A stretch of 64,000 bases of DNA from Clavelina lepadiformis. Taxonomy: Eukaryota; Chordata; Ascidiacea; Aplousobranchia; Clavelinidae. Both the position numbers and the translations under genes were made by a program. The number at the start of each line of letters is the position of its first letter. Within the stretch, counting starts at the first letter, position 1. This document shows, piece after piece, positions 13,551 to 42,030 of the stretch. The notes beneath the pieces are model-generated. The model was not told the origin of the DNA. It worked only from the letters and a program-made list of their open reading frames with translations, and made no database searches. The stretch lies in NCBI RefSeq assembly GCF_947623445.1, contig NC_135248.1, forward strand, positions 4,960,977 to 5,024,976. Reading direction: 5' to 3'.

Positions 13551-13552
13551 GA

Positions 13553-18700: not shown

Positions 18701-18850
18701 ACTCTACGCCGATAATTACTTCCCAAGCTTTCCGTTTATCCAAGAGGATATTCACGACAACGTTTTATTTCAGTAAATTTTTAGCTTTTTAAACTTGTAT
18801 CGAATTGAACTTGATTGTATTAGTTATCAGCAACTGAAAAAAAGGATTGT
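15712..18850. repeat. Right arm of the A/B inverted duplication
   Basis: This matches, in reverse, the DNA from about 4250 down to position 1, including the promoter regions and first exons of genes A and B. The two genes are therefore transcribed away from each other, with gene C and its scraps between them. Similarity is high in exons, with several indels in the flanks. The largest difference is the block of about 1.1 kb near 2096-3200 that is present only in the left arm. Confidence 0.7.
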
Positions 18851-19338
18851 TGTAATCTTTTCGTTTTAATTATCAATAGAGTGTTCAACAAAGTTTACAC
18901 ATAGGCCTACAAGGTTTTAAGTAAAATATGATCTGTATAGGATGAGCGACACATTAAAAGACTGGCTAAAAAACAATGGGGTTGATTATTTTACCACCAA
19001 CGGACAACTTTGGCCCGAAATAACTTTTCAAGCTGGTCAAGTGAAAAGATTCAGGTAGAAAACGTATGAGTAACAGGTGTGCAGTAAATAAAATGATTAA
19101 GATTAATTAAACTAATATTAAAAAAAGATTAAACAAGAGTTGAAAATGTTAAATGTTACTTATTCTTTTCTAGTTTTCTGTATCTTTACCGAATAAAAAA
19201 TAAAAATAAATAGCTTTACCGATTAAGAAATAAAAATGAAACCGATTGTTGAAGTTCCAATATACATTAATGTGACTTATGGTCAAAAAGTCAAGTTTCT
19301 TTTTGTATAGGATGGTTAACGCCGGTGGCAATGCTGTG
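17564..19338 (+). pseudogene. Multicopper oxidase gene B, 5' part (exons 1 to first part of 7)
   Basis: Relative of gene A in inverted orientation. Exons: 17564-17666, 17831-18030, 18132-18233, 18312-18443, 18567-18772, 18941-19054 and the start of exon 7 from 19311. Signal peptide MRGVVVIFLLSAICQC. L1 HTHGLH is in exon 3 and L2 WYHPHVHG in exon 4. Exon 2 has an in-frame TAA at 17965-17967 where gene A has TAC (tyrosine). Exon 7 is cut after MVNAGGNAV by the Polinton-like element and resumes at 36449. The premature stop and the 17-kb insertion make this a pseudogene unless alleles without them exist. All splice sites up to exon 7 are canonical and exon lengths equal those of A, so decay is recent. 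Confidence 0.85.
19333..19338. repeat. 6-bp target-site duplication GCTGTG, left copy
   Basis: GCTGTG at 19333-19338 is repeated exactly at 36443-36448. Removing the element and one copy restores an open exon 7 reading from NAGGNAV into LILQITDTNG, so the exact insertion point is known. Confidence 0.9.
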
Positions 19339-19370
19339 AGTAGTATAGTGGTGCCACCTCAGGAGTCTTA

Positions 19371-19443
19371 CCGCCACCGCCACCGCCAATCCGTCAACCG
19401 CCAATCCGCCAATCCGTCAACCGCCAATCCGTCAACCGCCATG
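19371..19443. repeat. Subterminal 15-bp minisatellite, left end
   Basis: Tandem copies of CCGCCAATCCGTCAA (15 bp) with shorter CCGCCA units at the outer side, 30 bases inside the element tip. The right-hand array has one unit more. Its chance open frame (SVNRQSANPS) is not a gene. Confidence 0.85.
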
Positions 19444-19517
19444 CCAGCAACTGTGAAGTAGGTCACTCCAAGATTAAGTCATTCAAGTAATTAGGTCATA
19501 TGTAAAAAAGAGAAAAG

Positions 19518-19597
19518 TGACGTCATAGTTTTCGTTAGCGCCACCACACGTAAAGAAAAAAGATGTTAGAAAAAGTACAAGTGTAAAAGTGACGTCA
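19518..19597. promoter_or_regulatory. Two TGACGTCA (CRE-like) palindromes in a duplicated block, left arm
   Basis: TGACGTCA occurs at 19518-19525 and 19590-19597. Each lies in a repeated phrase reading gtgacgtcatagttttcg. The sequence is the full consensus for CREB/ATF factors. The mirror sites are at 36241-36248 and 36169-36176. It could act in an element promoter; this is inference from the motif alone. Confidence 0.4.
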
Positions 19598-19904
19598 TAG
19601 TTTTCGTTAGCGCCAACGTGCGGTGTTCTAGATTTCTAGAGGAAAAAACATCTTGGGTTTGTGGATATTCGATATCAGTTACATCATAGTTTCAGTGTAA
19701 AGTATACAGAACGATGAACCGTATGCATTGCCACCTGGAATCATATGGAGAAAAGCCTAGAGTAAGAATGCGTTAATTGACACACTAACATGACCTGGTT
19801 ATGAAATCCAGCTTGGGTTGAAATAAGCCAGACTTTAGAAACAAAGCATTGGAAGGTATTACAACCAATCCATTCGATTCCAGGTGTAAGAGAAGAATAA
19901 ATAA

Positions 19905-20140
19905 TAGCTGGCATCCAGATGTGATTTGTCTTGACCCGATTATAAAGGCAAGTCCAAACCTGTCTGATTGAAACAAGTGTGTTGGACAGGTCGAAAGGGT
20001 GGTATATTGCGCAATCCAACCAATCCACTCACAGCCAGTTGTGGGAAAGAATAACGGAAAGCTGGCATCCAGATGTGATTTGTCTTGACCCGATTATAAA
20101 GGTAAGTCCAAACCTATCTGGTTGAAACAAGTGTGTTGGA
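19905..20140. repeat. Tandem duplication of about 85 bp in the left arm (two copies)
   Basis: The block starting gcatccagatgtgatttgtc is present at about 19910-19990 and again at 20063-20143, with a few substitutions. The mirror pair lies at about 35623-35856 in the right arm. No function is seen. Confidence 0.7.
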
Positions 20141-20475
20141 CATTACTATTCAGCTAGAGCAGTCATCTTTGTTAAAAAACTGTACTTGCTAGCATTAGAT
20201 ATAATCGTTTAGAGGAGGTAAACTTGTTTCGCATTGATAATTAATGAATAATATTGGATATTACTATTCAACAAAGCTTACGGTTTTAGTAATAAATTAG
20301 TATTTTTACAGTACCAAGAAGATTAAACTTCAACAAAAAACACATCAGAAGGAATAGGAAACGCTGTAAATTTTGTGTGCGGACATTTACAAAGTGAGTA
20401 CACAATAAACTTTATGGATGAAATATCATTTTCAATCTATACTGTATATTAGTTTAAGAGATTTGAAAAAACATA

Positions 20476-21169
20476 TGAGACGCTCACACCAACCGCGTGT
20501 AGTACCAAGACCCCAGATTCCTCGCCCTAGAACGATTGTGGTGGATGGCGATACAATCCCAGAAGATATTCCTGAAGATTACAGGTAAAAATAAAACATG
20601 ATTGATATCAAATAACAATTCATGAAAGGAGTTTATTTTATTTTTGAAGGGGTATCTATCAAAGCAATTGGTGAGCAATACGAACTCATTTTCATATCGG
20701 TAATACGGTTCAAGAGCGTTACACGTTTCGTATCCCTGACCAAAGCATGATCGATCAAGGTCTCGAATCATTATGGCCATACTTTCGTGAAAATATTTTC
20801 CAGAGACAACGACAACCGTTCAAAATCCGTGTCGCATTTGGATTTATTTTACGACATGAAGGAAATGAAGAAGACTTACCAGTAGTATATCGTTACTTTC
20901 ATCCGGACAACCACTCCGATTATTTGTATTTAGGCCCTGAAACCATCCGCGATCGAACCGAATTCGATCAATTCCTTATCGATATTCAACGGAAGAATAT
21001 CAGACAATGGTCGGATAGATTAAAATCCGAAAGCGCTTGGGTCGTGGAATCTATCTGTAATGTTGAATTTTACATCAATCCACTTCGGTATATACCGATT
21101 GGTATACCAGAAGCATTACCTGAATTTATTATTTCAAATAAAAGATCGATTTGTATGAGGCGACAATGA
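20476..21169 (+). pseudogene. Polinton-type DNA polymerase N-terminal region fragment, left arm
   Basis: Part of the Polinton-like element. The main open piece (20747-21169) has the pattern FKIRVAFGFILRH, YRYFHPDNHS, a short helical stretch, AWVVESICNVEFYI and a tail NKRSI. That order matches my memory of the region upstream of the catalytic part in Polinton/Maverick family B polymerase proteins. A short upstream basic, proline-rich piece lies at 20476-20584. The catalytic polymerase motifs are absent from the window, so only a fragment survives. Assignment is by pattern memory and needs a profile search. Confidence 0.5.
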
Positions 21170-22229
21170 ATAAAATACGTGTGATTTCGAATCTCCCCAT
21201 CCAGATACATATGATGAAATATAGCCTACAGTAACGCCTACACAAAACAATTTATAGTGATCAACCACTTCATACAGGAAAAAAAAAATTTTAAAACAAC
21301 TTTAAGTTGTCAACGTTTTATTCCATTATCCAACTTTTAACCTAAGAATAGAGTTTGAGATATAAATTTATACTGAACTATAGCTCGTGTAATTGGGTAA
21401 TGTGAAGAAGTCTTAAGTACATAACCCCGAAAAACATAGCTTTAGGCTATTCGCTTTTCAAAGGAATACGATCATCACTAAAAATGCATCGATCGACGGG
21501 TGAAATAAAACTAAGACCGCGTTTCGTTAGGTATAGAAAAACTATAAAATTTTCTTGCTTTGGTTGAATTATTCAAACCATTTAAACTTATTCCGCTGAT
21601 CATATTAATACATACTCAACTTTCTTTAGAAAAGAACGCGTTCAAACCGAAAGAAATGATTCCAACACCACAAAATTGGAAAATAAATATGCGGTTAAAA
21701 GCAAGTGTAAACTGTTTTTGATTGATTCTTCCTAAGCCAACTTAACTTATAAGTTATGATTTAACAAAATGCATTAAAATAAGCATATTTTTTCCTAAAC
21801 ACTGTTTGGTTTGATACACTTTAGTTTGGTAAAAGCATGACGAAACAGTATGTAAACAATGTATGGTTTAATTAACCTGGTTATTTATTTTTTTTTTTTT
21901 TATTTTATTTTTTATTTTTTTCATATGCAAGTACTTTTTGCACGTAAAACAGAAGTTCTTAAACTTTTTCATCTTACTTATTCCCACAAAATAAATGTAA
22001 ATGTGAGAAGAATCAAGGAGCAACGAACTGCTTGTATACCATTGCGATTAAGTTTCATTGTTTATCGAGGTAGTAGTGATTTAAGTTATCTCTTTACAGA
22101 ATGAAATGCAAACGGATCACCTTACCGCGGATTTCCCGGATCTAGAAAGTGACGGGAGGTTGTTGAGACAAGTTACAGATCCACCAGGACAACAAAGTCG
22201 TTACATTCCACCCGGTAGGTTGGAAAATC

Positions 22230-24486
22230 ATGTTTGAGAATCACGTTCCAGAGAAACGTAGGTTTTTACGTCACGATCCTATTTCTGTTAGTACAGGTGA
22301 TCCAGCGCGCGAGACCTATCGTCTTTCAACTTTCAAACTATTTCCCAGAGAAGTACAGGTCGATGTTCGTAAGTTGGTTTCTGCTGGTTTTTATTTCACT
22401 GGTTTTAAAGACAGGACCAAGTGCTTCAGGTAACGTCTTGTTCATTAAAATAGAGACTTGGATACATAAAATACGGGACTTAATTTCTAATCAAACAAAT
22501 ACGTTTAAACAAGTTGTGCGAATAGTTTTACGTTCAAAAACACTATCATAAAACAAATCTCAACTTCATTCCAGTTGTGGTCAATCTGTCCAAGAATGGG
22601 AAGTCGAAGATGACCCGAAGCTACTCCGATGGCATAGATCCAATTGTGATATCATTAACGGAAAGGATACAAGAAACATACCAATCGGTTAGTTAAGACA
22701 AAGATTTCAATTAATTTGTAAGAAAAAAAGAGAAGCATCGAATCAATCTGATCTGTAATACCAACAAAGTGTAAAGATGGATCGATGTTTAAAACGTCTC
22801 AAAAGCGTAAATGAACCGAACCAAATCTTGATTCTTTTTTGTAGTTTCATGAAACTACACCTGAAATTGCCTTATTATACTACCGTTTACGCTGTCATAA
22901 TAGAACGAGTTACGTGAGTGAGTAGTGAATTCTCCGTTCATATGACGTTACTTCCACTACCTTGTAAATATTGATTAAATCTAGATTCCATTCTTCGTCA
23001 ATTCGAACTTATTCCACCCCATGGCCATGGAAACGCTACAAGTTCAGCCACACGACCACCAACATCTGGGAATCCGCAGGCTTCAGCAGATCAAAGAAAA
23101 GTCATTACAAATGGCATTGGTATCACATCAAATTCACCAATGTTTCAAACAGCTACATTTAGAAATTCTTCGTGCTCCACCCCTCCACCTAGTGTGGTTG
23201 CGTCCACCATCGCGAATTCACATAGAAATCTTGCAATTAATTTGGAGAACATGAACTTGTTTCCATGTTTGAATCCGGTAAATCCTCACATGAAGAGCGA
23301 GAAATCTTGTCTCCAAACTTTCCTTGATCACTCGTCATCGTGGCCTACTCATAGGATTCGCACAACTCCCAGACAAATTGCAAACGCAGGAATGTATTAC
23401 TTGGGTGAGGCTCATACTTTCAAGCTTAGGTCTCATACCATAAAAAAATTAAAAAAAAAATAAAAATAAAATTTGGTAAGTTGTACAATTACAAAGTGAA
23501 ATATTCTCCAGGTGTAAGAGATCGTGTAAAATGTTGGTATTGCAATGGAGGATTACAAAATTGGGAGAGAGATGACGATCCATGGCAAGAGCACGCCAAG
23601 TGGTTTCCATTGTAAGTTGAATTTTCTGTCTCCATGAAAGAATTTACCAGATTTGGCTTTTTTATGATTTCTATGTTTAACAAACTTGGATCTCCTGCCC
23701 AGGTGCGAGTTTGTTCTTCAACAAAAAGGTCCAGATTATGTTCATGGGATCGCCTTTCGATTCCCCAATCTAAGAAGACCGACAATTCGGAATCCAGCAA
23801 ATCCAAATCAACTCAGGAATATTCAATCAGGACAAATGTAAACCTCCTAAAGTCATGTTCTTGATCATCATCTTGGTTTTGTTCTTTGTAGTTATCTATT
23901 TCTTTGTTTAGTTTACGAAACGAACATCGAAATGGTGGCCCTGAAATCATCGATCCCAGGGAAGAGATAAGATCTCTAGAGAGGAAAGTTGACGGAGAGA
24001 TGTCTTCGTCTGAACTGGTGGAGCAAGCAAAACTAATGGGATTCGACGAAAGAACGATAAAAACTGCTTTGAAAAGGTGAAATTTTGTCAAGAAAGCTAT
24101 TTTTTAATTTTTATTGCATTACAATTATGAATAGCATTGAAAACCGATCTTTCTACAGGAAATATGAAACCACTGGTTATGGATTTTCTAGGCTTGAAAA
24201 TCTCGTTGAGTCTATTCTTGCGATGGAGGAAGAATCTGCTTCCAATAGATCTGAAGAAGAAGGATTGGCAACAAAGAAAGCAACTCCTTCAATAGCATCT
24301 GGACTTCAAGAGATTCGTCGTTTACAGGAGGAAAGAACGTGTAAAGTTTGTGGCAACGAACAAGCGAGTGCTGTTCTTATTCCATGCGGACATATTGCTT
24401 GTTGTATTGGTTGCGCTGAAAACGCATCGACTTGTCCCATTTGTCGTTTGCGAGTTCGAGAAAAAGTCCGATCTTTTATTGTTTAA
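22230..24486 (+). CDS. Inhibitor-of-apoptosis protein (BIR-BIR-UBA-RING), left arm copy
   Basis: IAP family protein of about 486 residues: binds and blocks caspases or IAP antagonists through BIR domains and ubiquitinates through the RING. Exons 22230-22429, 22575-22687, 22985-23404, 23512-23611, 23703-23837, 23912-24076 and 24159-24486, all AG/GT and phase-consistent. BIR1 (about residues 28-100) has AGFYFTG, CFSCG, then DDP and WHRSNC. A Ser/Pro-rich linker follows. BIR2 (about 210-280) has [19 protein letters not shown] and FPLCEF. A UBA-like helix set ([19 protein letters not shown]) comes next. The C-terminal RING has [16 protein letters not shown] and CPIC. An exon at 22106-22215 may supply an earlier start. 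Layout resembles BIRC2/3-type IAPs without a CARD. It lies inside the inverted repeat of the Polinton-like element, likely a captured host gene. No break was seen. Confidence 0.88.
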
Positions 24487-25412
24487 AGCAAAAGTTTGGA
24501 TTCTTTTGAAATGTAAGTCAACGCCGCGCTATGGTGATTTGATATGAAGTGTGAACCGTATTTAGAGCGCTACCTTGCGTTATCCTCACAATCGATTCAG
24601 TTACAAACATCATCGCTGGCTGGCAGTACGATAACATCCAAAACTTTTCAATTTAAATTGTTATTCAAAAAACTTGCCTTGTATAGTATTTTCTGGAATT
24701 TCCCAAAGGTTCTTTTCAAGTTTTGAACATGTATTCACGTTGCTATCATATTATAATTCGTTACATAGCCATTTATTTCATCACCGTTGCGCAATATGCG
24801 TTTCGCGATCGTCATACCTTGAAATCATTTGCCTCTGGCTACTCTCCAAGCTTTCAAGGAAAAGTATGAAAAAGCAAACTTATATTCACGATCGATCAGC
24901 ATGATGATAGTCTTAAAATAGATATTCGTTTTTATTGGAATCATACTCACAAATATATCAAATTGAAACGTTTAAGAGGTCTGTAAACGCACACATCCAG
25001 TATGCTTGTGCTTTTTTAATAGGTTCAGTGATAATTAATACAACACACTCAAGGATTAAAATAACGCAGTAATTCATGAAAGCGGGTTACAAGATTCTTC
25101 GATCAGCAAAACAAAAATTCCAACGCTTAAACGACATGCTTTAAAATACAGCTTCTTGAAGGAATTTCGTAAAATCACGCTGTAACAGTGTGCAGAAGTT
25201 TCGCAAGACAACGACTTAGTTTTCGGCTCACTTGACTGATCATTGTCTGTCACAGGATCACTTTCCTGGTTTCGGCGCAAGAAACATTGTTAAAAATCAA
25301 CACACGATTGGAGGAATCGAATCGCTGAAATGTTACAAAAGGTATTTTTCATCAGGGCAATCGTGAAACGTCCGGCGCCAAACATTCTATTTGGAGTTTC
25401 AAACTAATAAAT
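24487..25412 (+). other. Arm sequence downstream of the left IAP
   Basis: No further gene is recognised between the IAP stop and the inner edge of the arm. Short open frames here (24544-24726, 24674-24904, 25074-25280 minus) lack domains. The mirror is 30354-31279. Confidence 0.5.
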
Positions 25413-26070
25413 AGCAAAACCGAATGTTGAAACGAAGGTTTTTTTGACAGGTTATATGCACTCCTGGTTGTTTGCGGTATTTTTGAACGTATTTGGCACG
25501 AATGTATTTATCTGTTTAGCGTTTGCACCATGTTTTTTCAACAAAACCGAAAAATATTTGTTAAAATAAAACAAACAATTAATTGCACCACGTTTCAGAC
25601 TTATAATTACAATTTTCCACAACTTAATGTCATCGACCACAGAAAAAGTGGCAAAATCCAAGCGCTTACATCACGCAAGTTGGAATAATAGAATTTTGTG
25701 CTACACGATGTTAGAGATTAGAATAGCTACGTTGATGTGTCACGGGATTATTTTTACGCACCTGTTTCAGAACCAACACATTTTAATATTGCGATATCAC
25801 ATTTGTAAGACACTTGTTTACGGTGTGAGATGTTACCTGTTTTAGATAGACTGTATTTTAGTCACCCAATTAATTGTTCACATTGTACACGATTTGTTCG
25901 AACCACTCTTGTAGGTTAATTTAGTCCAATGTATTGGTCAACTTCTGTTTTTATTCGCATTGTGCATTATTTTATTCCTATGCATGCTCGTCAGGTTTTC
26001 TTACGTTTGCTCACGTACTGACGTATTTTACCTATTCATATGTACACATGTTTTTAGTCTGTGACGTCTA
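25413..26070. other. Loop DNA left of the nested element
   Basis: AT-rich sequence without a recognised gene. The block from about 25595 (cttataattacaattttcc) to 25740 is similar in direct orientation to 30110-30345 on the far side of the loop. The loop edges therefore share old sequence in addition to the arm palindrome. Confidence 0.45.
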
Positions 26071-26319
26071 CACTGTCATTCATGTGTTTAAAATTTAAAC
26101 ACAATTTTACTTCTTTAAACATGTTAAAGTGTTTAATTATGTGTTTAAGTGTATAAATTTTGTTAATTTGACAAAATTTAAACACTTTATGGGTTAAACA
26201 CCACAATCCATGACACGTTTAATAATGATTTATGCCTATTCTACACTTTTTCCACGCTTTAGGCGTTTAAATGTTAAACACATAACACAAAGATTACAAA
26301 ATGTGTCAAACAAAAAGGT

Positions 26320-26600
26320 GTTTAGGAGGAATGTGTTTATTTTGATGAGTTTTATTGAATTATATCTTATACTTTAAGTTGCTTTAGAAAGAATCTATCA
26401 AAAACAGTTTGGTACTATATGCTTTAGACTTGTTCGCATTACCCAATTACACGAGCTATTGTTCAGTATAAATTTGTATCTCGGACTCAATTCTTAGGTT
26501 TAAAGTTGGCAACTTGAAGTCGTTTTAAAAATTTTCCTGTATGGAGTGGCTGAACACTAAATTGTATTGTTCAGGCCTTACTGTAGGCTATATTTCAAAG
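26320..26600 (-). repeat. Diverged partial copy of arm sequence inside the loop
   Basis: Shared landmarks such as acccaattacacgagcta and actgtaggctatattt show that this is a diverged copy of right-arm DNA at 33960-34560 (same strand), with an internal stretch of about 280 bases missing. It is clearly older than the near-identical arms, so related elements were present in the lineage before this palindrome formed. Confidence 0.6.
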
Positions 26601-26760
26601 GGGTGAAAGGGGCCTTGGCCACCCCGACCCCATATTTTGTGTCTATATAGGTTTCTACATCGGGTGGCGGTGTCTTAAAACCAACAATTCGTATAGTTCT
26701 CTTTGTAATCTCATGAAATATTTGATCCCCCCCCCCAATTTTTTTCCGGCTACGCCACTG
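26600..26760 (-). mobile_element. MITE-like fragment ending GGCTACGCCACTGG
   Basis: On the minus strand this starts CCAGTGGCGTAGCCGG followed by a long G run and contains GGTGGCCAAGGCCCC. Such ends are common in short non-autonomous elements of invertebrates. The 79-codon open frame across it is not a gene. The second terminus and a target duplication were not found. Confidence 0.4.
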
Positions 26761-27499
26761 GCTGTGATTGGTTTTCAAGTAAAGCCATTCACCCAGGAAT
26801 GGAGGGTGAAAAACCAATTACCATACTTTGCCCATCAAAGTTTGAAATTACTCGGGCATGGCCTAACGTGGGCGTTCTTTTCTCGTCGTTTGATTGAAAG
26901 GTAAATGACAAGCGTTCACCATCAGTTAGTGGAACGTCTGAATAACGTTTGTTCATATAATGTAGATTGTGTATCTGAAAATAGTAAGTTATAACTATTT
27001 ATTCCATGTTTAAATAACTCAAAGCCCAAAATATTAAAATAAAAAAACTTTCATAACATTACATTAAACTTATTGTTTTACATTAGAACAAGTAATTGTT
27101 GTTTTTATTTACTTTTTATCCAGCAAGTTTGCTATTTAAAAATTATTTTAAGTTCTATGAAATATCTTGTTAAATTCTACCATGGTCAAAAATGTGGGCG
27201 CGCATTTACCTCCTTCAGGCAGCTAGGCTAAAAGCTATCTCTAAAATCTGAACCCTCTTTTCAGCTTACATATAGACAGCGAATTGTTTTATGACGTTTC
27301 GTAGGGCTGTAGCTTATTGCCACAGTTTGTTTTCGGTAGCCTATATAGGTAGCCTGGTGTAGCGTATTTCGCTGTATGGATCAGGTTTGTTACTACAAGG
27401 CCTAGGCTATATTCCAGGCATAAAGGTTTACAGAGTTACAGACAATAACAAATATTTATAGCATGTTTTCGATACCCGGTGGTGCCATACCGTTGTAAT

Positions 27500-29570
27500 G
27501 CTCTTGGGAAAGGCAATGGCCTTCGGTAAGCATTTGATTTTGATAATTTAGTACTGTAGAAAGAAAATTGTTGTAATAACTGTATAATGATAAATTTCCT
27601 AGCCTACAATATAAAATATTTTTGTACTCAGTAGTCTATAACAGTTTATACTAAGCTGTTTCTTTACAGGCGTTTTCTGTAGAAAGTTATTGGAAAAACT
27701 TAGAAACTTATGTCGGAAGAGAAGCCATCCACCTGTGCCATCACATATGGTAGTAAACAACCCTCATCATTAGGTTTCCTCCAACTACACTGGCAGGTGA
27801 TGCAGAATTATATATTTTTGATCCACATGAAATTTTTATTATTAACAATATTAAGTTAATTTTAAAATATACTGTGCATGCCAAAAAGTGTTGCTTCAGT
27901 GGTGGATTGGCTTAGCACCAGGTTCAAACAATGCGAACTTATTGCAAATGTCCAGTGTTACTACTTTTGTAATGTTCTTGGGTAAGCCATTATTAATCTT
28001 TACTCTTCTGGTCCTGGTGAGCAGAGCCAGGGTTGGTCAATATGTTATAAAATTCAATAAACAAATGAAAATTGAGTTTTTGTGGAAAACTGCAGAGAGT
28101 GGAGGAATCATTGCCGAGTCCGAGTCTTCCAAAGACATTCGAGAAGAAAGATTCTGACACCTTATCAAAAAGCTTGATTACATCTCACTACTGTTTTAAA
28201 AGCTATATTGTTTAGTTTTATATTTTTAATCACTGTAGATTCAGAATGGACAAAAAAGGGCTACTGAAGTTATTAGACAACATTTAGAAAAGGAAGAATC
28301 AGGATGGGAATACGGTCTACTAAAACAGGTATTTAAGACCAATGTCTGTCTTTCACCAAGAAGCAATTAGTTTAATGTAAAGATGGATGCATTAGTGCAG
28401 AGGTTGGGAACCTATGGCTCGCGAGCCAGATATGGCTCTTTTGATGATGGCATCTGGCTCGCAAATAAATCTAAGCTGGCATTTCTTAGCTCAATTGTTA
28501 CGAATAAAACTTTTCAGTTATTTGTAATTTTGTAATTTCTGTATCATGCAGCACCAGAAATCGCATTAACAGTAATTAGCATGTTATTAAAGAGTAAATT
28601 CAGACATTTACCGTTGTCTAAAATAGTTGGTTTTGCTTAAAAATGCACACGTTAGTTGCATTAAGTGTTGAAAAATATTATATGGCTCTAACGGAAATAA
28701 AAATTAACAATATGTGGATTTCATGGCTCCTTCGCCAAAAAGGTTCCCGACCCCTGCATTAGTGGAATCATTGAAAAGTTTTCATTATTAGGACAAATGC
28801 CTTTTGTTAGTGTTTGAAAGAAACTTATTATAAGGTGTTTTAGATTTTCATACTTTTGTAAGAGAATACAGTTGTAGATCATGTTTAGAGGCTGCAACAT
28901 GGTTATTGATATAGTGATAAATTTTGCAGATTGAGGAAAAATTCAGAAATGTTTATCAATTTGATTACAATACGATATAAGACGCTTGCGTAAGCATGCT
29001 AACCACGCTAGACAACAAATGTAACAGCAATGTTGAGCGGCAATGCCATGAGACTGAGGTGAGCAATCTGAGCATTCATCCAGCAATTAACAAAAATCAA
29101 ATTTGGTTGTTTGTGTATTAGCTTATTGCTTTGTTGAAGAATAATGTGTTCAGATCTTGAGACATTTTATATATATTGAGGTGAAAATAGATTCATTATT
29201 AATAGTGTAAAAACCTAACAAAACTTTTGACATAGGATCCATCACCAGAGAAAGAACTTAATCTCTTTTTGAGGTCACAAAAACAACTTTGGCCGACCCG
29301 CAAAACAATTCTTTTTGATGCAATGCAGACTGTTAATGTGAGTTGTAGTTGCTTTATTTAACTGGTGGCTTTACAGAACAATTTGTATACATTGACATTT
29401 TTGTTTTAATTTTTTAGGCATTTCGGATTAGTTTAAACTCCAGAAAGAAAACACTGCCAAGTTTGCTTGTTTCTTATAACGAAGCCGGAACCATGAAAAC
29501 ATTCATTGTTGCTGATTCAATCCACTTCAGATGTAACAACGATTCGAGGGGGGTGTTAGGCTATTTAATG
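27500..29570 (+). CDS. Unidentified spliced gene in the loop (several exon-like pieces)
   Basis: I do not recognise the product. Exon-like pieces with AG/GT borders lie at 27501-27525, 27670-27773, 28239-28327, 28930-28980, 29236-29337 (34 codons, LNLFLRSQKQLWPTRKTILF) and from 29418 (AFRISLNSRKKTLPSLLVSY, then VADSIHFRCNNDSRGVLG). The last two join in phase 0 without a stop and look like real coding sequence. The gene may be cargo of the nested element or a captured host gene. A hAT MITE sits between the third and fourth pieces. The 3' end runs into a TTA microsatellite at 29585-29618, so it may be truncated. Confidence 0.4.
28398..28756. mobile_element. hAT-type MITE, 359 bp, with 8-bp target duplication
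   Basis: Terminal repeats are CAGAGGTTGGGAACC and GGTTCCCGACCCCTG. It is flanked by exact 8-bp duplications CATTAGTG at 28390-28397 and 28757-28764. It contains the ggctcgcgagcc palindrome common in this group. No coding sequence. It sits in an intron of the unidentified loop gene. Confidence 0.88.
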
Positions 29571-29620
29571 CAACTTATCGGTTGTTATTATTATTATTAT
29601 TGTATATTATTATTACTCAC

Positions 29621-29749
29621 GGGTGCCGGAAGAGGAAGGGCAGAGAGGCCATCGCCCCCTTTTCTTTCTTTATTTTCCAAAATGACATTCAAAAAGTGTC
29701 CTATTTTCGAATTTTGCCCCCTGCCAAAAATAATTCCGGCGCCCGTGAT
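29621..29749. mobile_element. Short inverted-repeat element, about 130 bp
   Basis: The ends are CACGGGTGCCGGAA and TTCCGGCGCCCGTG, near-perfect inverted repeats around a pyrimidine-rich core. No target duplication was resolved because the left flank is a TTA microsatellite. Probably a small MITE. Confidence 0.5.
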
Positions 29750-31279
29750 TGTACCTGCCTTGCTGTTGCGCTACTGTAATAAACGCTATTTTGGAAATTT
29801 TGACTGCCAAGTGACAATACGCATAAAATAGTAAACACCTAGTTAGTAAACACGTACAACATTTAAACATAAACACCAAAGATAATAAACACCTAGTTAG
29901 TAAACACCTACAACATTTAAACACAAAACAGAATAAACATGTGCGATTTAAACATGTAACCATTTTAGGCGTTTCTTTTTGGCCTCACTTTTCGTGTTTA
30001 ATTAAAGTGTTTAACAAAATAACAGTGTAACTTCGCTACCCCTCGGGCCTAAATGGTATTTGCGTTTGCACCAATGTTCATTCAAAACCGAAAAACATTT
30101 CATTTTAGACTTATAATTACAATTTTCCACGACTTAATGTAGCAACAACTATGTGTTCAAAGGTCATTTGTATCAGATCTTATATTTTCCGCCATGAACT
30201 GTGCGAAGCGAAAATTACGATGCTAACCGCTATAGCATAATAAATATAACATAAATAAACAATTAAGGATCACAGAAATAGGGCTAAAACACAAACGCTT
30301 ACATCATGCAATTTGGAATAATATAATATAGAATAGCTATGTTGAAGTGTCAAATTTATTAGTTTGAAACTCCAAATAGAATGTTTGGCGCCGGACGTTT
30401 CACGATTGCCCTGATGAAAAATACCTTTTGTAACATTTCAGCGATTCGATTCCTCCAATCGTGTGTTGATTTTTAACAATGTTTCTTGCGCCGAAACCAG
30501 GAAAGTGATCCTGTGACAGACAATGATCAGTCAAGTGAGCCGAAAACTAAGTCGTTGTCTTGCGAAACTTCTGCACACTGTTACAGCGTGATTTTACGAA
30601 ATTCCTTCAAGAAGCTGTATTTTAAAGCATGTCGTTTAAGCGTTGGAATTTTTGTTTTGCTGATCGAAGAATCTTGTAACCCGCTTTCATGAATTACTGC
30701 GTTATTTTAATCCTTGAGTGTGTTGTATTAATTATCACTGAACCTATTAAAAAAGCACAAGCATACTGGATGTGTGCGTTTACAGACCTCTTAAACGTTT
30801 CAATTTGATATATTTGTGAGTATGATTCCAATAAAAACGAATATCTATTTTAAGACTATCATCATGCTGATCGATCGTGAATATAAGTTTGCTTTTTCAT
30901 ACTTTTCCTTGAAAGCTTGGAGAGTAGCCAGAGGCAAATGATTTCAAGGTATGACGATCGCGAAACGCATATTGCGCAACGGTGATGAAATAAATGGCTA
31001 TGTAACGAATTATAATATGATAGCAACGTGAATACATGTTCAAAACTTGAAAAGAACCTTTGGGAAATTCCAGAAAATACTATACAAGGCAAGTTTTTTG
31101 AATAACAATTTAAATTGAAAAGTTTTGGATGTTATCGTACTGCCAGCCAGCGATGATGTTTGTAACTGAATCGATTGTGAGGATAACGCAAGGTAGCGCT
31201 CTAAATACGGTTCACACTTCATATCAAATCACCATAGCGCGGCGTTGACTTACATTTCAAAAGAATCCAAACTTTTGCT

Positions 31280-33536
31280 TTAAACAATAAAAGATCGGAC
31301 TTTTTCTCGAACTCGCAAACGACAAATGGGACAAGTCGATGCGTTTTCAGCGCAACCAATACAACAAGCAATATGTCCGCATGGAATAAGAACAGCACTC
31401 GCTTGTTCGTTGCCACAAACTTTACACGTTCTTTCCTCCTGTAAACGACGAATCTCTTGAAGTCCAGATGCTATTGAAGGAGTTGCTTTCTTTGTTGCCA
31501 ATCCTTCTTCTTCAGATCTATTGGAAGCAGATTCTTCCTCCATCGCAAGAATAGACTCAACGAGATTTTCAAGCCTAGAAAATCCATAACCAGTGGTTTC
31601 ATATTTCCTGTAGAAAGATCGGTTTTCAATGCTATTCATAATTGTAATGCAATAAAAATTAAAAAATAGCTTTCTTGACAAAATTTCACCTTTTCAAAGC
31701 AGTTTTTATCGTTCTTTCGTCGAATCCCATTAGTTTTGCTTGCTCCACCAGTTCAGACGAAGACATCTCTCCGTCAACTTTCCTCTCTAGAGATCTTATC
31801 TCTTCCCTGGGATCGATGATTTCAGGGCCACCATTTCGATGTTCGTTTCGTAAACTAAACAAAGAAATAGATAACTACAAAGAACAAAACCAAGATGATG
31901 ATCAAGAACATGACTTTAGGAGGTTTACATTTGTCCTGATTGAATATTCCTGAGTTGATTTGGATTTGCTGGATTCCGAATTGTCGGTCTTCTTAGATTG
32001 GGGAATCGAAAGGCGATCCCATGAACATAATCTGGACCTTTTTGTTGAAGAACAAACTCGCACCTGGGCAGGAGATCCAAGTTTGTTAAACATAGAAATC
32101 ATAAAAAAGCCAAATCTGGTAAATTCTTTCATGGAGACAGAAAATTCAACTTACAATGGAAACCACTTGGCGTGCTCTTGCCATGGATCGTCATCTCTCT
32201 CCCAATTTTGTAATCCTCCATTGCAATACCAACATTTTACACGATCTCTTACACCTGGAGAATATTTCACTTTGTAATTGTACAACTTACCAAATTTTAT
32301 TTTTATTTTTTTTTTAATTTTTTTATGGTATGAGACCTAAGCTTGAAAGTATGAGCCTCACCCAAGTAATACATTCCTGCGTTTGCAATTTGTCTGGGAG
32401 TTGTGCGAATCCTATGAGTAGGCCACGATGACGAGTGATCAAGGAAAGTTTGGAGACAAGATTTCTCGCTCTTCATGTGAGGATTTACCGGATTCAAACA
32501 TGGAAACAAGTTCATGTTCTCCAAATTAATTGCAAGATTTCTATGTGAATTCGCGATGGTGGACGCAACCACACTAGGTGGAGGGGTGGAGCACGAAGAA
32601 TTTCTAAATGTAGCTGTTTGAAACATTGGTGAATTTGATGTGATACCAATGCCATTTGTAATGACTTTTCTTTGATCTGCTGAAGCCTGTGGATTCCCAG
32701 ATGTTGGTGGTCGTGTGGCTGAACTTGTAGCGTTTCCATGGCCATGGGGTGGAATAAGTTCGAATTGACGAAGAATGAAATCTAGATTTAATCAATATTT
32801 ACAAGGTAGTGGAAGTAACGTCATATGAACGGAGAATTCACTACTCACTCACGTAACTCGTTCTATTATGACAGCGTAAACGGTAGTATAATAAGGCAAT
32901 TTCAGGTGTAGTTTCATGAAACTACAAAAAAGAATCAAGATTTGGTTCGGTTCATTTACGCTTTTGAGACGTTTTAAACATCGATCCATCTTTACACTTT
33001 GTTGGTATTACAGATCAGATTGATTCGATGCTTCTCTTTTTTTCTTACAAATTAATTGAAATCTTTGTCTTAACTAACCGATTGGTATGTTTCTTGTATC
33101 CTTTCCGTTAATGATATCACAATTGGATCTATGCCATCGGAGTAGCTTCGGGTCATCTTCGACTTCCCATTCTTGGACAGATTGACCACAACTGGAATGA
33201 AGTTGAGATTTGTTTTATGATAGTGTTTTTGAACGTAAAACTATTCGCACAACTTGTTTAAACGTATTTGTTTGATTAGAAATTAAGTCCCGTATTTTAT
33301 GTATCCAAGTCTCTATTTTAATGAACAAGACGTTACCTGAAGCACTTGGTCCTGTCTTTAAAACCAGTGAAATAAAAACCAGCAGAAACCAACTTACGAA
33401 CATCGACCTGTACTTCTCTGGGAAATAGTTTGAAAGTTGAAAGACGATAGGTCTCGCGCGCTGGATCACCTGTACTAACAGAAATAGGATCGTGACGTAA
33501 AAACCTACGTTTCTCTGGAACGTGATTCTCAAACAT
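31280..33536 (-). CDS. Inhibitor-of-apoptosis protein (BIR-BIR-UBA-RING), right arm copy
   Basis: Mirror of the left copy. Exons (minus) 33536-33337, 33191-33079, 32781-32362, 32254-32155, 32063-31929, 31854-31690 and 31607-31280. The same two BIR domains, UBA and RING are present and open throughout. One visible residue change lies in the linker (His for Arg before LQQIKEK when read in the alternative frame). The two copies are transcribed toward the loop, tail to tail, about 6.8 kb apart. The palindromic context could give double-stranded RNA if either transcript read through the loop. Confidence 0.88.
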
Positions 33537-34596
33537 GATTTTCCAACCTACCGGGTGGAATGTAACGACTTTGTTGTCCTGGTGGATCTGTAACTTGTCT
33601 CAACAACCTCCCGTCACTTTCTAGATCCGGGAAATCCGCGGTAAGGTGATCCGTTTGCATTTCATTCTGTAAAGAGATAACTTAAATCACTACTACCTCG
33701 ATAAACAATGAAACTTAATCGCAATGGTATACAAGCAGTTCGTTGCTCCTTGATTCTTCTCACATTTACATTTATTTTGTGGGAATAAGTAAGATGAAAA
33801 AGTTTAAGAACTTCTGTTTTACGTGCAAAAAGTACTTGCATATGAAAAAAAAAAAAAATAAAATAAAAAAAAAAAAAATAAATAACCAGGTTAATTAAAC
33901 CATACATTGTTTACATACTGTTTCGTCATGCTTTTACCAAACTAAAGTGTATCAAACCAAACAGTGTTTAGGAAAAAATATGCTTATTTTAATGCATTTT
34001 GTTAAATCATAACTTATAAGTTAAGTTGGCTTAGGAAGAATCAATCAAAAACAGTTTACACTTGCTTTTAACCGCATATTTATTTTCCAATTTTGTGGTG
34101 TTGGAATCATTTCTTTCGGTTTGAACGCGTTCTTTTCTAAAGAAAGTTGAGTATGTATTAATATGATCAGCGGAATAAGTTTAAATGGTTTGAATAATTC
34201 AACCAAAGCAAGAAAATTTTATAGTTTTTCTATACCTAACGAAACGCGGTCTTAGTTTTATTTCACCCGTCGATCGATGCATTTTTAGTGATGATCGTAT
34301 TCCTTTGAAAAGCGAATAGCCTAAAGCTATGTTTTTCGGGGTTATGTACTTAAGACTTCTTCACATTACCCAATTACACGAGCTATAGTTCAGTATAAAT
34401 TTATATCTCAAACTCTATTCTTAGGTTAAAAGTTGGATAATGGAATAAAACGTTGACAACTTAAAGTTGTTTTAAAATTTTTTTTTTCCTGTATGAAGTG
34501 GTTGATCACTATAAATTGTTTTGTGTAGGCGTTACTGTAGGCTATATTTCATCATATGTATCTGGATGGGGAGATTCGAAATCACACGTATTTTAT

Positions 34597-35290
34597 TCAT
34601 TGTCGCCTCATACAAATCGATCTTTTATTTGAAATAATAAATTCAGGTAATGCTTCTGGTATACCAATCGGTATATACCGAAGTGGATTGATGTAAAATT
34701 CAACATTACAGATAGATTCCACGACCCAAGCGCTTTCGGATTTTAATCTATCCGACCATTGTCTGATATTCTTCCGTTGAATATCGATAAGGAATTGATC
34801 GAATTCGGTTCGATCGCGGATGGTTTCAGGGCCTAAATACAAATAATCGGAGTGGTTGTCCGGATGAAAGTAACGATATACTACTGGTAAGTCTTCTTCA
34901 TTTCCTTCATGTCGTAAAATAAATCCAAATGCGACACGGATTTTGAACGGTTGTCGTTGTCTCTGGAAAATATTTTCACGAAAGTATGGCCATAATGATT
35001 CGAGACCTTGATCGATCATGCTTTGGTCAGGGATACGAAACGTGTAACGCTCTTGAACCGTATTACCGATATGAAAATGAGTTCGTATTGCTCACCAATT
35101 GCTTTGATAGATACCCCTTCAAAAATAAAATAAACTCCTTTCATGAATTGTTATTTGATATCAATCATGTTTTATTTTTACCTGTAATCTTCAGGAATAT
35201 CTTCTGGGATTGTATCGCCATCCACCACAATCGTTCTAGGGCGAGGAATCTGGGGTCTTGGTACTACACGCGGTTGGTGTGAGCGTCTCA
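34597..35290 (-). pseudogene. Polinton-type DNA polymerase N-terminal region fragment, right arm
   Basis: Mirror of the left-arm fragment. The open piece 34597-35019 is identical in translation to 20747-21169, with the short basic upstream piece at 35182-35290. It is a fragment only, with no catalytic motifs. Confidence 0.5.
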
Positions 35291-36442
35291 TATGTTTTTT
35301 CAAATCTCTTAAACTAATATACAGTATAGATTGAAAATGATATTTCATCCATAAAGTTTATTGTGTACTCACTTTGTAAATGTCCGCACACAAAATTTAC
35401 AGCGTTTCCTATTCCTTCTGATGTGTTTTTTGTTGAAGTTTAATCTTCTTGGTACTGTAAAAATACTAATTTATTACTAAAACCGTAAGCTTTGTTGAAT
35501 AGTAATATCCAATATTATTCATTAATTATCAATGCGAAACAAGTTTACCTCCTCTAAACGATTATATCTAATGCTAGCAAGTACAGTTTTTTAACAAAGA
35601 TGACTGCTCTAGCTGAATAGTAATGTCCAACACACTTGTTTCAACCAGATAGGTTTGGACTTACCTTTATAATCGGGTCAAGACAAATCACATCTGGATG
35701 CCAGCTTTCCGTTATTCTTTCCCACAACTGGCTGTGAGTGGATTGGTTGGATTGCGCAATATACCACCCTTTCGACCTGTCCAACACACTTGTTTCAATC
35801 AGACAGGTTTGGACTTGCCTTTATAATCGGGTCAAGACAAATCACATCTGGATGCCAGCTATTATTTATTCTTCTCTTACACCTGGAATCGAATGGATTG
35901 GTTGTAATACCTTCCAATGCTTTGTTTCTAAAGTCTGGCTTATTTCAACCCAAGCTGGATTTCATAACCAGGTCATGTTAGTGTGTCAATTAACGCATTC
36001 TTACTCTAGGCTTTTCTCCATATGATTCCAGGTGGCAATGCATACGGTTCATCGTTCTGTATACTTTACACTGAAACTATGATGTAACTGATATCGAATA
36101 TCCACAAACCCAAGATGTTTTTTCCTCTAGAAATCTAGAACACCGCACGTTGGCGCTAACGAAAACTATGACGTCACTTTTACACTTGTACTTTTTCTAA
36201 CATCTTTTTTCTTTACGTGTGGTGGCGCTAACGAAAACTATGACGTCACTTTTCTCTTTTTTACATATGACCTAATTACTTGAATGACCTAATCTTGGAG
36301 TGACCTACTTCACAGTTGCTGGCATGGCGGTTGACGGATTGGCGGTTGACGGATTGGCGGTTGACGGATTGGCGGATTGGCGGTTGACGGATTGGCGGTG
36401 GCGGTGGCGGTAAGACTCCTGAGGTGGCACCACTATACTACT

Positions 36443-39352
36443 GCTGTGCTTATTCTTCAAATTACGGACACTAACGGCACTATTGCTGAAGGGTGTACTG
36501 TTTACCAAATTGCATTGGATGGAATTTATTTTGATTCGGCAACACCTCCACGACTTGGTAAAACAATGCTTGTTCCATCGGCAAAAAGTGACTGGCTGGT
36601 AGTCTGCAACATCCCTGGAACCTACGAAGTTCGTAAATTAGAAAGTTGTTGATTATAATGTTGTCCTACCTGACACAAGTGTAGGACGAGTACAGTGAAA
36701 AATTTCAAAATTTTTTTGGTAAAGTTAGGGATGTTATTTTAGTTATGTTAGTAGAAAAGGGGAAGTCACCCATGATGAGCCTAAAAAGAGACAACGGAAT
36801 GAATTTTTTAAATCACAAAGTTAACTTTTGTTTTTAGTCACTTATTACCAGTATAAATAAGAGAACTTTTGTGTTTTCTGAACGAAGTATTGGGTCCAAT
36901 TTTTTCATTCTACGGTGCATTTATTCATTATCATAATACACGATGAGTTATGAAATAACTTTAAAATTATCATTTGAAATCATTAGCTGAGATCAGTAAA
37001 ATCACCTGATGACGATGTATCAATGGGAGGTATGTCGCAATACCAAGGCAAGCTCCTGACTATAAAAATCAATGGAACACAAACCTCAACTGTCATACCG
37101 ACATCGCTTCCCGCAAAACAATTTTTTGTGTCTGATTTTCGAAACCTGACGGAAGACGAAGTGAGACTATAGCGAATATTTCTTTATAAGATGTGCTTTT
37201 ATTCAAGCATTTTTGAAAAATCATTCATCAAATTTAAAAAAAACAACAAAGTTAAAAATCACCTCTAAAAAATCATTTCAAAAAAGTTGTTCTTCTTTAG
37301 GTAACTGGACGATTTGTTATCGAAGTTGGACCAGATTTGACGTTGAACAGGGAAAGATTTCAGTCGAAAACAAACTTTACTTTATAATAGTCTATGTTAT
37401 TTGTTTATATCCTAAACGTTTTTCTTTGCAATAACTTCTGAAATAAGCTTTTAAATGTAGTTTAGTATTTAATTTTCACCTCTTTATATGAACATTTGCT
37501 CTTACCAAAAAGAAGGTATGTGGCCGAAACCAGTCAGCTTTAAAAAAGGTTATGTGTTTATATACATGCAGTTGTGTTGCTTTTAGTAAACTCTTGGTAC
37601 TCGAAAACCATTTGAACATCACCCTATACTCTATAAAATCACACAAATGCATAAATGCATAAATCACCGGGAGCAGAGTGACCTATGCCAATTGTCAAAC
37701 TTTTTTTGATTTTTTAATCGTTATAGATTTGTGGCGAGCTTAAACACTGTTCAGGAATGGTACATCATCAATACTGCTTCGTTTCCCCATCCAATTCATA
37801 TTCACGTGAATAATTTTCAGGTAGTCTATAAAGATTTTTTATAGTATAATGTTTTTTTTAATTGTAATTTTGCTTTATAGTCAAATTCAAAAAGTTGCAA
37901 TTATGTCTTACATGATTTCGTGATCGTTCAATTAACGATCTAGACAACTAATATAGACATATGTGCACATGTATACACATATGCAGAAAAATAACAATGT
38001 TGTGTAAATAAAGCAAGTTTCACTTAAGGCTCAGGACAATTTACCAGATGTTTCCTTGCTTCTTTAATGACATCTCGGGCTTTTTTGTGGGTTTTCAAAA
38101 AATTTCTTGTAATAAAAAACATTTCAGGTCATCAGTTACAATAACTACACTGGACCAATTGGAGCCACCGTGATGGGCAACAAAGTATTTTTTAATCAGA
38201 ATAAACAACAATGTGATCGCCAGTACGAAAACTTCCCCAAAAGTGAGCTCATGGAAGGACGTTTTTATATGCTTTATATCAAAGTGGTATTTTCAGAAGT
38301 CGGTCAAGAAAAATCAAACGATTTTGCAAAATATCTGTCCATTCCTCAATCTACATTGTAGCTCATAAATATAATTGCGTGTAATTTTTTTTAGGCATAC
38401 AGGCTATGTTACCTGATTATGATTATAACCAATGGTTGAAGTATCGAGGCCATGCTCAGCGCTGGAGAGATATGGAAAGTCATCCTAATGGAACTTTGGG
38501 CTATTCACCAAGTGGAATTTTCCATGACGTAATTCTTGTCCCACCGTTTAGTAATATTACGGTAAGAATATTTCGCATATTATTTGCCGTTTGCTTCCAT
38601 TTATAAGATTCTGTATTTTCATGTTGTTATAATCAAGTTTTGTAAAATTATCCTCCTAATCACTTATTTTGATACTATTAACATTTTGCATATTTCGCAA
38701 TGAAGATTCGATTCCAAACGGATCGTTTTATTGGTACCGTGGTCATTCACTGTCATATTCTATATCACGAAGATCACGGTATGATGATGGTTACAAAGAT
38801 CGTACCAGACGGTAAGATATTTTATTGAAAAAATTATCATAGCAGATCAGACGTAATTAACAGAAGTTGTTTTGGGTGTTGTTGCTTCTAATTTTCGAAA
38901 TCAAATTTAGAATTATATAATCACCAAATTATATTCAAAATACCTGCATGGCTTGAATAATTCTATCGAAACAATAAGGTATCAAAACTATGTTGTAAAC
39001 ATATAGCAAAATACGATATTGATTTCATTCCATCCCTTGATTTTCGTGTTGCAATAGTTGTAGTTTTGTTTTTATGTTTATTTCATTCGTTTGATCGACT
39101 TAATATGGGTTTCTACCACGTTCCTTTCTACCGCATTTGTAACGAATTGATTAAAATTTTCAAGGAGCCAATACTACTGGCGCACACATTAAGTCCGGCG
39201 ATGCTTATCCAGGGCAGTGCAGCAAATGCGACCCGTTTCCATTCAACGAAGTTGTTGGAGAATGTTCAGGATCAAGGAGGAAACATTTCAACATCATCAT
39301 CTTGGTGACAGTTGTCCTGGCTACCTTTATTCTTTTCATTGTCACTGAATAA
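36443..39352 (+). pseudogene. Multicopper oxidase gene B, 3' part with C-terminal membrane anchor
   Basis: Continuation of gene B after the inserted element. The rest of exon 7 is 36449-36640 (LILQITDTNG to GTYE). Then come exon 9 (36997-37160), exon 10 (from 37301), exon 11 (37727-37820, L3 HPIHIHVNNF), exon 12 (38128-38260), exon 13 (38395-38561), exon 14 (38706-38811, L4 HCHILYHEDHGMM) and a last exon 39165-39352. Exon 8 was not found, and exon 10 meets a TAA before a usable donor. The last exon ends in a hydrophobic segment (IIILVTVVLATFILFIV) then TE-stop, so the ancestral product was a type I membrane oxidase. Gene C lacks this segment. Introns and exon phases match gene C. Confidence 0.8.
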
Positions 39353-40522
39353 CATTAAATGTGTACAGTGATGTGCATTCTTGTGCTTATGTACATTTGT
39401 TAGTGAGCGCTCTGAATTGTTCGATTAAAAATCGCTCGTAAGCACTTTATAGTTGTTACCTTTTTCTGCTGTTTTCTTATATCCTTGGAAACATTATTGT
39501 AAATAACCAAAAATATTACTTCTTTGTAGTCGTTATATTTACGTTAATTAATAATGCTGGTATATAGCCTACATGCCCTACAGCGATGTATATAGCTAAA
39601 TTTATGTTTGTTGCAAGGACAGAAAGCTGTCTGCATGATATTCTGGAGAGGAATAGTTTTAAATAGAATTTATTGATATTCACTATAGCTGTATTTATTA
39701 AGTCTTCCATAAGTATTTACGGCCGAGAATGGTAGGTTTAAATTTTGTTTCGGATATCTTTATAAATTATTGGCAGATTATTATCGAAAAAGTATGTTGG
39801 GGGAAAATTTTCTAAATGCATTTCTACCGAAAATAAAATTCTTTGCCCGCCACCCTTATTAGTATATAGGATATTGTAAAACAAGAGATATATAAACATA
39901 ATTACTTGAAACAATTAATTTACTAAGCAGTTTTTACCAAAAGTGACACATTTTGACACAGTGACACACACATTCCACCAAGTTCGGCAATCATTGAGAT
40001 CTAAAGAAACGCGGGCAAAAAATTTTAACAAGATTTTGTCCCAGAAAAAACATAAGAAACCTCACTAATATTATTTTCCAAAGGCTTATAAGCTTTCCGC
40101 GATTTTTTCGTTTTTGCTATAAACTTGCTTGCGTGTATGCATGGTTATTATTTTTACTGACTTTTGATGAAACCTGGGTTGCCAATTGCTATGATGTAGC
40201 CAATGGATTGACAACAGAAAGCACAATTCATCTTGTAACCGTGCTTAAGCGTGAACAATGAAAAGAGTTTGGAAAAAACTTGGAAAAAAGGAAAGTTGGT
40301 TGGGATCTTTAGGCGAACCGGGAAATTAAGTTAGAAAGATGAAACTGCCTTTTTATCAAAATATGTTGAATAAATTTTTGCAGCCCAACAAATCAATGCA
40401 TTCCTAATATAATTTGTTGAGAGCTGTAATTCTTGTAATGCAGTCACCAGTCCACCGCGGTTTCAAATGCAAGCGAAACGTTGAGCTTGAGTCTTCATTA
40501 TACGCTAAACATCTGACATATT

Positions 40523-40618
40523 ATGGCCAGTACACGCAGGCCTGAGTGCACGAACCGTAATTCTACTCCAATTGCTTTTCACAGGCTTCCGAAAACTTCC
40601 TTAAAAGACGCTGTTTAA
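40523..40618 (+). pseudogene. Possible THAP zinc-finger domain start
   Basis: The frame ATG...TAA reads MASTRRPECTNRNS then PIAFHRLPKTSLKD, resembling the start of a THAP domain (Cys, spacer, FHRFPK-like motif). The distal CxxH part is missing. It may be a remnant of a P-element-like transposase or of a THAP gene. The evidence is one short motif only. Confidence 0.3.
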
Positions 40619-41682: not shown

Positions 41683-42030
41683 TTATACAATTTTCAGATA
41701 TTTGCGCTTGGAGTTCAGTCCTTGCGTGGTAAACTTGACGTCGACCAGGTTGAAAGCATAGTCGGAGTGAAGAATCATCTCTTTGTATTCCGCGAATGTT
41801 TTGCCAGTTTGACCGAGGTCTTTGCAATGGAACTTTCTGATGCTGTTTGTCATGACCCCTTCTATGATGAACCCGAGCACCGATAGTGGAGAAATTTTGA
41901 GCACATTGGTCTTATCGACGGTTTTCCAAATGTCAATTTCTTGTTTTTCTGTCTGGCTCGCATAATCAGTAACTTGAATGTAAATTAACTGCAAATTCGT
42001 CAACACGCTCCTTTCGTTAATATTTAACAA
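41683..42030 (-). CDS. Unidentified open frame of 115 residues
   Basis: I do not recognise the product. It reads SVLTNLQLIYIQVTDYASQT, then EIDIWKTVDKTNVLKISPLS and KTFAEYKEMILHSDYAF, and has protein-like composition. The frame continues upstream in broken form to about 42400, so this may be a decayed gene or transposon protein. It lies just upstream of and opposite to the piggyBac remnant. Confidence 0.3.
   Translation of the reverse strand: MLNINERSVLTNLQLIYIQVTDYASQTEKQEIDIWKTVDKTNVLKISPLSVLGFIIEGVMTNSIRKFHCKDLGQTGKTFAEYKEMILHSDYAFNLVDVKFTTQGLNSKRKYLKIV

Follow-up and report, generated by a model that had tools for sequence, protein, structure and literature searches.

Palindromic Polinton derivatives with IAP genes in Clavelina lepadiformis and their probable origin by fold-back replication

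Polintons, also called Mavericks, are described in the portions of PMC8097293 drawn on here as elements of 12-25 kb with an (AGT)2 end motif, 6-bp target-site duplications and genes for a polymerase (PolB), an integrase, an ATPase and capsid proteins. In vertebrates their terminal repeats span 46-1,447 bp, with a mean of 402 bp, and, according to the abstract of the same paper, particles of Mavericks had not been seen (PMC8097293). Protein-primed replication of Polintons has so far been inferred from gene content. Here we describe a 17,104-bp palindromic element of this kind, found inside a multicopper-oxidase exon in a 64-kb stretch of DNA from Clavelina lepadiformis (hereafter the window), together with its relatives in the same single genome, whose loci are named by contig and megabase position (C1 to C9). 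The family shares the end motif and the duplications, and its fuller relatives, one of 14 kb, carry the gene set; in contrast to the published terminal repeats, the inverted arms of eight measured copies are 4.6-7.2 kb long and make up most of the element. We consider it probable that such an element is a non-autonomous Polinton in which one end and its adjoining sequence were duplicated in inverted orientation and replaced the other end, that it arose by fold-back during replication and that it is mobilised in trans.

The window palindrome extends from 19339 to 36442 and has AGTAGT tips, reading 5'-AGTAGTATAG at 19339 and, on the complementary strand, at 36442. Exact copies of a 6-bp duplication, GCTGTG, flank it at 19333-19338 and 36443-36448. 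The left arm, on the plus strand, measures 6,074 bp (19339-25412) and the right arm, on the minus strand, 6,089 bp (30354-36442), with four mismatches over their full length; the segments 19382-25412 and 30354-36384 are 100% identical over 6,031 bp, and the outer 43 bp are shifted relative to each other by a tip minisatellite. An earlier reading made from the letters of the window (the sequence-only reading) had claimed AG tips, exact duplications, borders known to the base and a palindrome with arms of about 6.07 kb, far beyond usual Polinton repeats, and all of this is borne out by the tips, flanks and arms. Its further claim, that an exon of a multicopper-oxidase gene is split, also stands: when the flanks are rejoined minus one duplication, a single open exon crosses the insertion site, and plus-strand exons with matches to multicopper-oxidase paralogues continue in order from one side of the element to the other (17806-18132, 18567-18758 and 18924-19055, then 36443-36649 and 37683-37826). 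The left piece of the interrupted exon runs from a splice-acceptor-like AG, placed by eye, at 19311 to 19338, and the right piece from 36449 to 36652, both on the plus strand. The window copy appears to be a recent insertion in this exon.

Each arm begins with the tip and terminal repeat region common to full-length Polintons (19339-20083 on the plus strand, mirrored at 35683-36442). Further in lies a left-end remnant from the region of the PolB N-terminus (20303-21142, plus strand, mirrored at 34624-35463) with 96% identity to positions 1394-2232 of a full-length copy. The encoded N-terminal fragment matches over 169 columns at 89%, and since residues 1-168 are directly joined to a 31-residue piece of the C-terminal part, the gene is internally deleted in this copy. 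An inhibitor-of-apoptosis (IAP) gene of host type, with introns, follows at 22085-24486 on the plus strand (outer limits set by eye), with its second copy in the right arm at 31280-33681 on the minus strand, including a RING open reading frame (ORF) at 31280-31639. The polymerase fragment that the sequence-only reading had noted and the IAP gene that it had placed in each arm are both real. Matches to integrase, capsid, protease and ATPase were looked for in the window copy and none was found; it lacks the PolB and integrase of its own that an autonomous Polinton would have, and the proposed description as a non-autonomous, cargo-bearing Polinton derivative fits.

The centre of the element consists of two spacer parts, S1 (25413-26070), which is common to C2:3.89, C6:17.63 and a relic at C4:7.50 Mb, and S2 (30028-30353), which ends at the palindrome junction, 30353/30354. 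Between them, 3.96 kb are a later, separate nested transposon (26071-30027) with CACTG...CAGTG ends and a TA duplication, for which the copy at C2:3.89 Mb provides the empty site; its subtraction leaves an element of about 13.1 kb with a spacer of about 0.98 kb. Positions 26105-26597 of the nested transposon are 68-85% similar to arm parts of several Polinton copies, so that the arms contain pieces of its repeat.

Further copies bearing these tips and flanked by 6-bp duplications, for which a search had been suggested, were indeed found. A 200-bp tip query gave 51 matches in the genome, and a 20-base tip pattern, allowing one mismatch, occurs at 60 places in 209 Mb, 33 of them exact, while its reversed control occurs at none. 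Both ends were read in 16 elements: the window copy, C4:22.27, C9:11.81, C2:3.89, C6:0.61, C6:15.33, C3:5.40, C7:16.68, C5:10.30, C6:17.63, C1:7.09, C2:21.23, C1:2.06, C3:21.62, the outer element at C5:20.03 and C8:5.81; in four (C9:11.81, C7, C6:17.63 and C1:7.09) the ends were shifted some bases by eye on the flanks. The duplications are perfect in 13 elements and have one mismatch in two, C1:2.06, in which drift has brought the inner arms to 98.9%, and the non-palindromic C3:21.62; C6:15.33, which has lost its right tip, has none. The family shows the 6-bp duplication, the 5'-AG / (AGT)2 end motif and the terminal inverted repeats of Polintons, and the window element is a Polinton (Maverick) derivative.

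The count of 16 omits the fused elements at C6:15.108-15.138 Mb, single tips (C1:2.40, its duplicate C1:4.04 and others), C1:1.80, which is an exact duplicate of C1:2.06 (100% over 9,824 bp), C5:0.405, which has symmetric matches only, and tip matches that were not followed. The C6:15.108-15.138 Mb region is a chain of fused palindromic elements, in which a truncated arm runs into the next tip, and represents element-in-element insertion or recombination. On C1, inverted duplicates of about 9.8 kb (1.794-1.803 and 2.056-2.065 Mb, 100%; 2.39 and 4.04 Mb, 99.9%), which include Polinton copies, point either to a recent segmental duplication or to a duplication in the assembly.

Relatives with a fuller gene set, integrase and PolB included, which had likewise been proposed as a target for searching, are also present. 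The fullest, C5:10.30 Mb, has 13,958 bp and a terminal repeat of about 0.8 kb. It encodes PolB in two successive ORFs about 30 bases apart (5397-5426 of its locus; a similar break is seen in C6:0.61), an ATPase matching Pox_A32 above the cut-off, a retroviral-type integrase with rve and chromo domains, a capsid protein, a protease-like ORF (184 aa; candidate adenain-like cysteine protease, Pfam E 0.06, below cut-offs, with catalytic-looking residues by eye), a putative minor capsid protein (274 aa, without Pfam match) and, on the opposite strand, a 228-aa BIR and RING IAP in a single ORF. PolB motifs were recognised by eye, and PF03175 is carried by 18 of the 120 relatives listed. A structural model built from a 96% relative of the capsid protein and 24 homologues (pLDDT 75.8) matches the capsids of Sputnik and mavirus with Foldseek probability 1.00, and the protein is predicted to be of the double-jelly-roll type. 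A scan of viral contigs with the capsid alignment gave 49 pattern matches, none confirmed, PHROGs assigned no family to the five proteins compared, and of three PDB sequence searches two gave no match and the third six chance-level rows. Among 116 of 336 integrase candidates scored, three copies at 98-100% have an open frame (C5, C6:0.61 and C4); the frame is broken in C1:7.09 and the remaining matches are 24-56% identical. C6:0.61 lacks the left part of PolB and C1:7.09 is rearranged.

Palindromes are the commonest form among the copies read, with long inverted arms in 11 of the 16. Arm lengths are 6.1 kb in the window, 7.2 kb in C2:3.89, 6.0 kb in C3, 5.9 kb in C7, 5.6 kb in C9:11.81, 5.5 kb in C6:15.33, about 5.2 kb in C6:17.63 and 4.6 kb in C4. 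The arms of C2:21.23 agree at 99.9% over more than 5 kb and then at about 96% on to the centre, C1:2.06 has inner arms of 2.3 kb, and C8:5.81 has arms of at least 1.6 kb at 99.8%, with further symmetric matches inward. The other five (C5:10.30, C6:0.61, C1:7.09, C3:21.62 and the outer C5:20.03) are non-palindromic, C5:20.03 being rearranged around an inner tip with arms of about 1 kb.

Alone among the 11 palindromes, the copy at C4:22.27 can be placed across its junction on a known fuller element. Its bases follow the full element from 13958 inward to 6458, jump to 9353 and return to 13958, so that one parental end stands at both ends with a single inversion junction, as in snapback-type products. 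On this base-level map C4:22.27 corresponds to the full element's right half folded back on itself. The two halves meet bluntly or share 3 bp at most (CTT, with one extra base). Five of 3757 non-terminal sites separate the arms, against a divergence of 1.3-4.1% from the three non-palindromic copies compared, and both arms therefore come from one template. Its centre carries the integrase and a protease ORF, and each arm a capsid gene and an IAP gene; PolB and ATPase were looked for in it and not found at E 1e-8.

The left end is represented by five palindromes with PolB N-terminal sequence in both arms (the window, C2:3.89, C6:15.33, C6:17.63 and C1:2.06), out of the ten tested, that is all but C8:5.81. 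One S1-S2 centre is common to the window, C2:3.89 and C6:17.63, the last with an added inverted piece; C6:15.33 has lost its centre and looks like a centre deletion of this form. C3 and C7 share a different centre. The idea that each palindrome is an independent event was dropped in view of these shared centres. The relic at C4:7.50 Mb differs by about 9-10% over its centre (BLAST) and by 6.5-6.8% in the IAP region. Read from the opposite strand, it shows the window's succession of arm end, S2, S1 and opposite arm, its arm-S2 junction falls on the same base as in the window, and its second arm is without the inner stretch. Together, the shared centres and the relic indicate that the palindromic form is inherited over time while its arms stay alike. 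Arm-to-arm divergence within a copy is 0.014-0.295% in the eight palindromes measured, as against 0.73-1.39% between copies of lineage i, 1.31% between C3 and C7, and 4.1-11.5% between lineages over alignable parts, which in some pairs extend barely beyond the terminal repeat. This likeness may well reflect equalisation during replication.

The IAP cargo of the window's left arm comprises BIR pieces split by introns, a UBA-like exon (by eye, without Pfam match) and a RING exon (ORF 24127-24486). Pfam gives E-values of 2e-7, 6e-13 and 0.05 for three of the BIR exons, nothing for one, and 3e-12 for the RING exon; no internal stop was seen by eye in the recognisable exons. The arm gene aligns through exons and introns, in blocks of 70-87%, to copies in the host IAP clusters at C1:27.5 and 28.2 Mb, and the compact IAP of the fuller Polinton is more distant (32-57% in pieces). 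By this structure the arm gene is classed as a host-type gene with introns, present in each arm of several left-end palindromes, and the left-end form appears to have taken it up as DNA with its introns kept. The BIR/RING gene clusters themselves cover C1:27.51-27.60 and 28.21-28.29 Mb, the latter with near-identical copies about 16-18.5 kb apart. A suggestion of two independent IAP captures was discarded as unsupported by trees with few host paralogues.

How might such elements arise? During protein-primed strand-displacement replication the polymerase would quit its template in favour of the complementary strand, nascent or displaced, and copy back to the starting end, giving a product with an identical tip at both ends. 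With the same tip at both ends, we propose, a complete Polinton could replicate and integrate the product in trans. A left-end form with a host-type IAP gene would then multiply as a family of satellites akin to defective genomes, with arms that could be re-equalised at each cycle, as one arm can template the other in a hairpin. Support for fold-back replication comes from the Polinton tips, the 6-bp duplications, the fuller relatives, the palindromes of both ends and the near-identical arms.

Several observations weigh against this account. Template switching, trans mobilisation and IAP function are processes that we infer from integrated copies, and the same product would result if one end were copied onto the other by a break-induced process. 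Neither PolB ORF of C5:10.30 has a Pfam polymerase match at E 0.1, and with PolB in two ORFs there the present activity of a helper is unproven. PolB N-terminal sequence was not found in C4, C2:21.23, C3, C7 and C9 among the ten palindromes tested, so that for the last four the case for a left-end origin is their shared arm sequence. The left-end palindromes may descend from one old event and, with one junction of 11 mapped, recurrence rests on at least two origins, left and right. The three tips of the fused C6:15.108-15.138 Mb elements show no matching duplications among them. As to the cargo, the nearest of the host cluster genes compared stands at 12-13% divergence, farther off than dispersed copies at about 9%; the direction of IAP transfer is accordingly read from exon-intron structure and the tandem cluster and not from a donor gene. 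The IAP trees fit a single capture; they do not decide between one and several, and the donor is unproven.

The strongest competitor to fold-back replication is end replacement, in which a broken Polinton copies its lost end from a sister molecule by break-induced replication, as a terminal-repeat expansion. An identical product is expected, and junctions with little homology would suit it as they do end-joining; the process requires a sister identical over kilobases, though, and the C4 arms are far closer to each other than to any of the three other copies. Identical sisters are conceivable if they came from one replicating clone, and we regard end replacement as unlikely without discounting it. 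Less probable still is chromosomal recombination between inverted neighbouring copies, with arms kept identical by gene conversion as on Y chromosomes. Nested or fused copies do exist (C6:15.108-15.138 Mb and C5:20.03 Mb), and gene conversion is well known in chromosomal palindromes. Against this, the outer-tip duplications are perfect in nine of 11 palindromes, with one mismatch in one and a lost tip in another, and a single matched 6-bp duplication at the outer tips implies that the palindrome predates insertion. In addition, the C1:2.06 arms did drift, and one S1-S2 centre recurs in the window and C2:3.89, which are unlinked and carry different duplications.

Large palindromes are difficult to assemble, so an artefact with one arm as a false mirror image must be considered; the unlike flanks, matched duplications, small arm differences, one-sided nested insertion, 11 such loci and the published assembly's basis of 117-fold HiFi plus Hi-C data, as given in the part of PMC10884593 used, make it very improbable and we rejected it. 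Another transposon superfamily sharing only its tips with Polintons, which could account for a window copy without integrase, capsid, protease or ATPase match, was rejected as scarcely credible given 96% DNA identity to the fuller Polinton across the PolB N-terminal region and the integrase gene, protease-like ORF and two capsid genes of C4.

A broader picture, offered tentatively, is that animal Polintons spawn palindromic satellites by fold-back replication from either end, that these form long-lived parasitic lineages with arms equalised every cycle, and that the opposed pair of host IAP genes could prolong the life of an infected cell or, through read-through transcription, give rise to hairpin RNA directed at the IAP cluster of the host.

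The surroundings of the element hold further features. Across window positions 1-19338 and 36443-55000, multicopper-oxidase-like exons are repeated on the minus strand, the interrupted copy being on the plus strand, and they are read as a gene array of mixed orientation. Pfam named one of the nine short paralogous or flanking exons tested (Cu-oxidase_2, E 5.9e-7, window 50600-50860, minus strand, which matches exon 37683-37826); the other eight gave no match. By eye, a 1203-aa open frame at 56615-60226 resembles a gag-pol retroelement, and 42571-43656 a broken piggyBac-like transposase.

What this analysis adds is a class of palindromic derivatives of both left-end and right-end type; the prevalence of palindromes, the right-end form, the nested transposon and the host-type, intron-bearing IAP had all been overlooked in the sequence-only reading. 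No palindromic or IAP-bearing Polinton is reported among the matches listed from the open-licence literature, by title and start of abstract, a scope that does not prove novelty in print. The words 'palindrom' and 'apoptosis' are absent from the main text of PMC8097293, and, in the parts at hand, PMC8905726 names Mavericks and IAP separately and PMC4061559 names IAP for baculoviruses. Palindromes may be missed or collapsed elsewhere, since annotation expects short terminal repeats. If such is their origin, the integrated left-end and right-end palindromes would preserve in the genome a record of Polinton replication by protein priming and of a satellite layer that lives on it. IAP genes on fuller elements would fit a virus-like phase that needs delayed host cell death, and the host-type IAP with introns points to uptake of host genes by Polintons at the DNA level.

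Among other known systems, Pack-MULEs, in the sections of PMC6431247 used, similarly carry parts of host genes and are mobilised in trans; they differ in using another transposase and cut-and-paste movement, and no palindromic body is described there. Adenovirus 12 has a protein-primed replication system, and its SYREC symmetric recombinants, attributed to Deuring, Klotz and Doerfler in 1981, are said to be palindromes of the viral left end and cellular DNA, reportedly a laboratory particle population and not a genomic family. Adeno-associated virus (AAV), a parvovirus, has hairpin-primed and not protein-primed replication. Its snapback genomes resemble the forms seen here in being self-complementary subgenomes from the left or right half, symmetric or asymmetric, and template switching has been proposed for its non-unit genomes (PMC8235507). 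They occur in particles, whereas ours are integrated copies; as far as the part of PMC8235507 used here goes, they show that products of this type are able to arise and be replicated in a different viral system.

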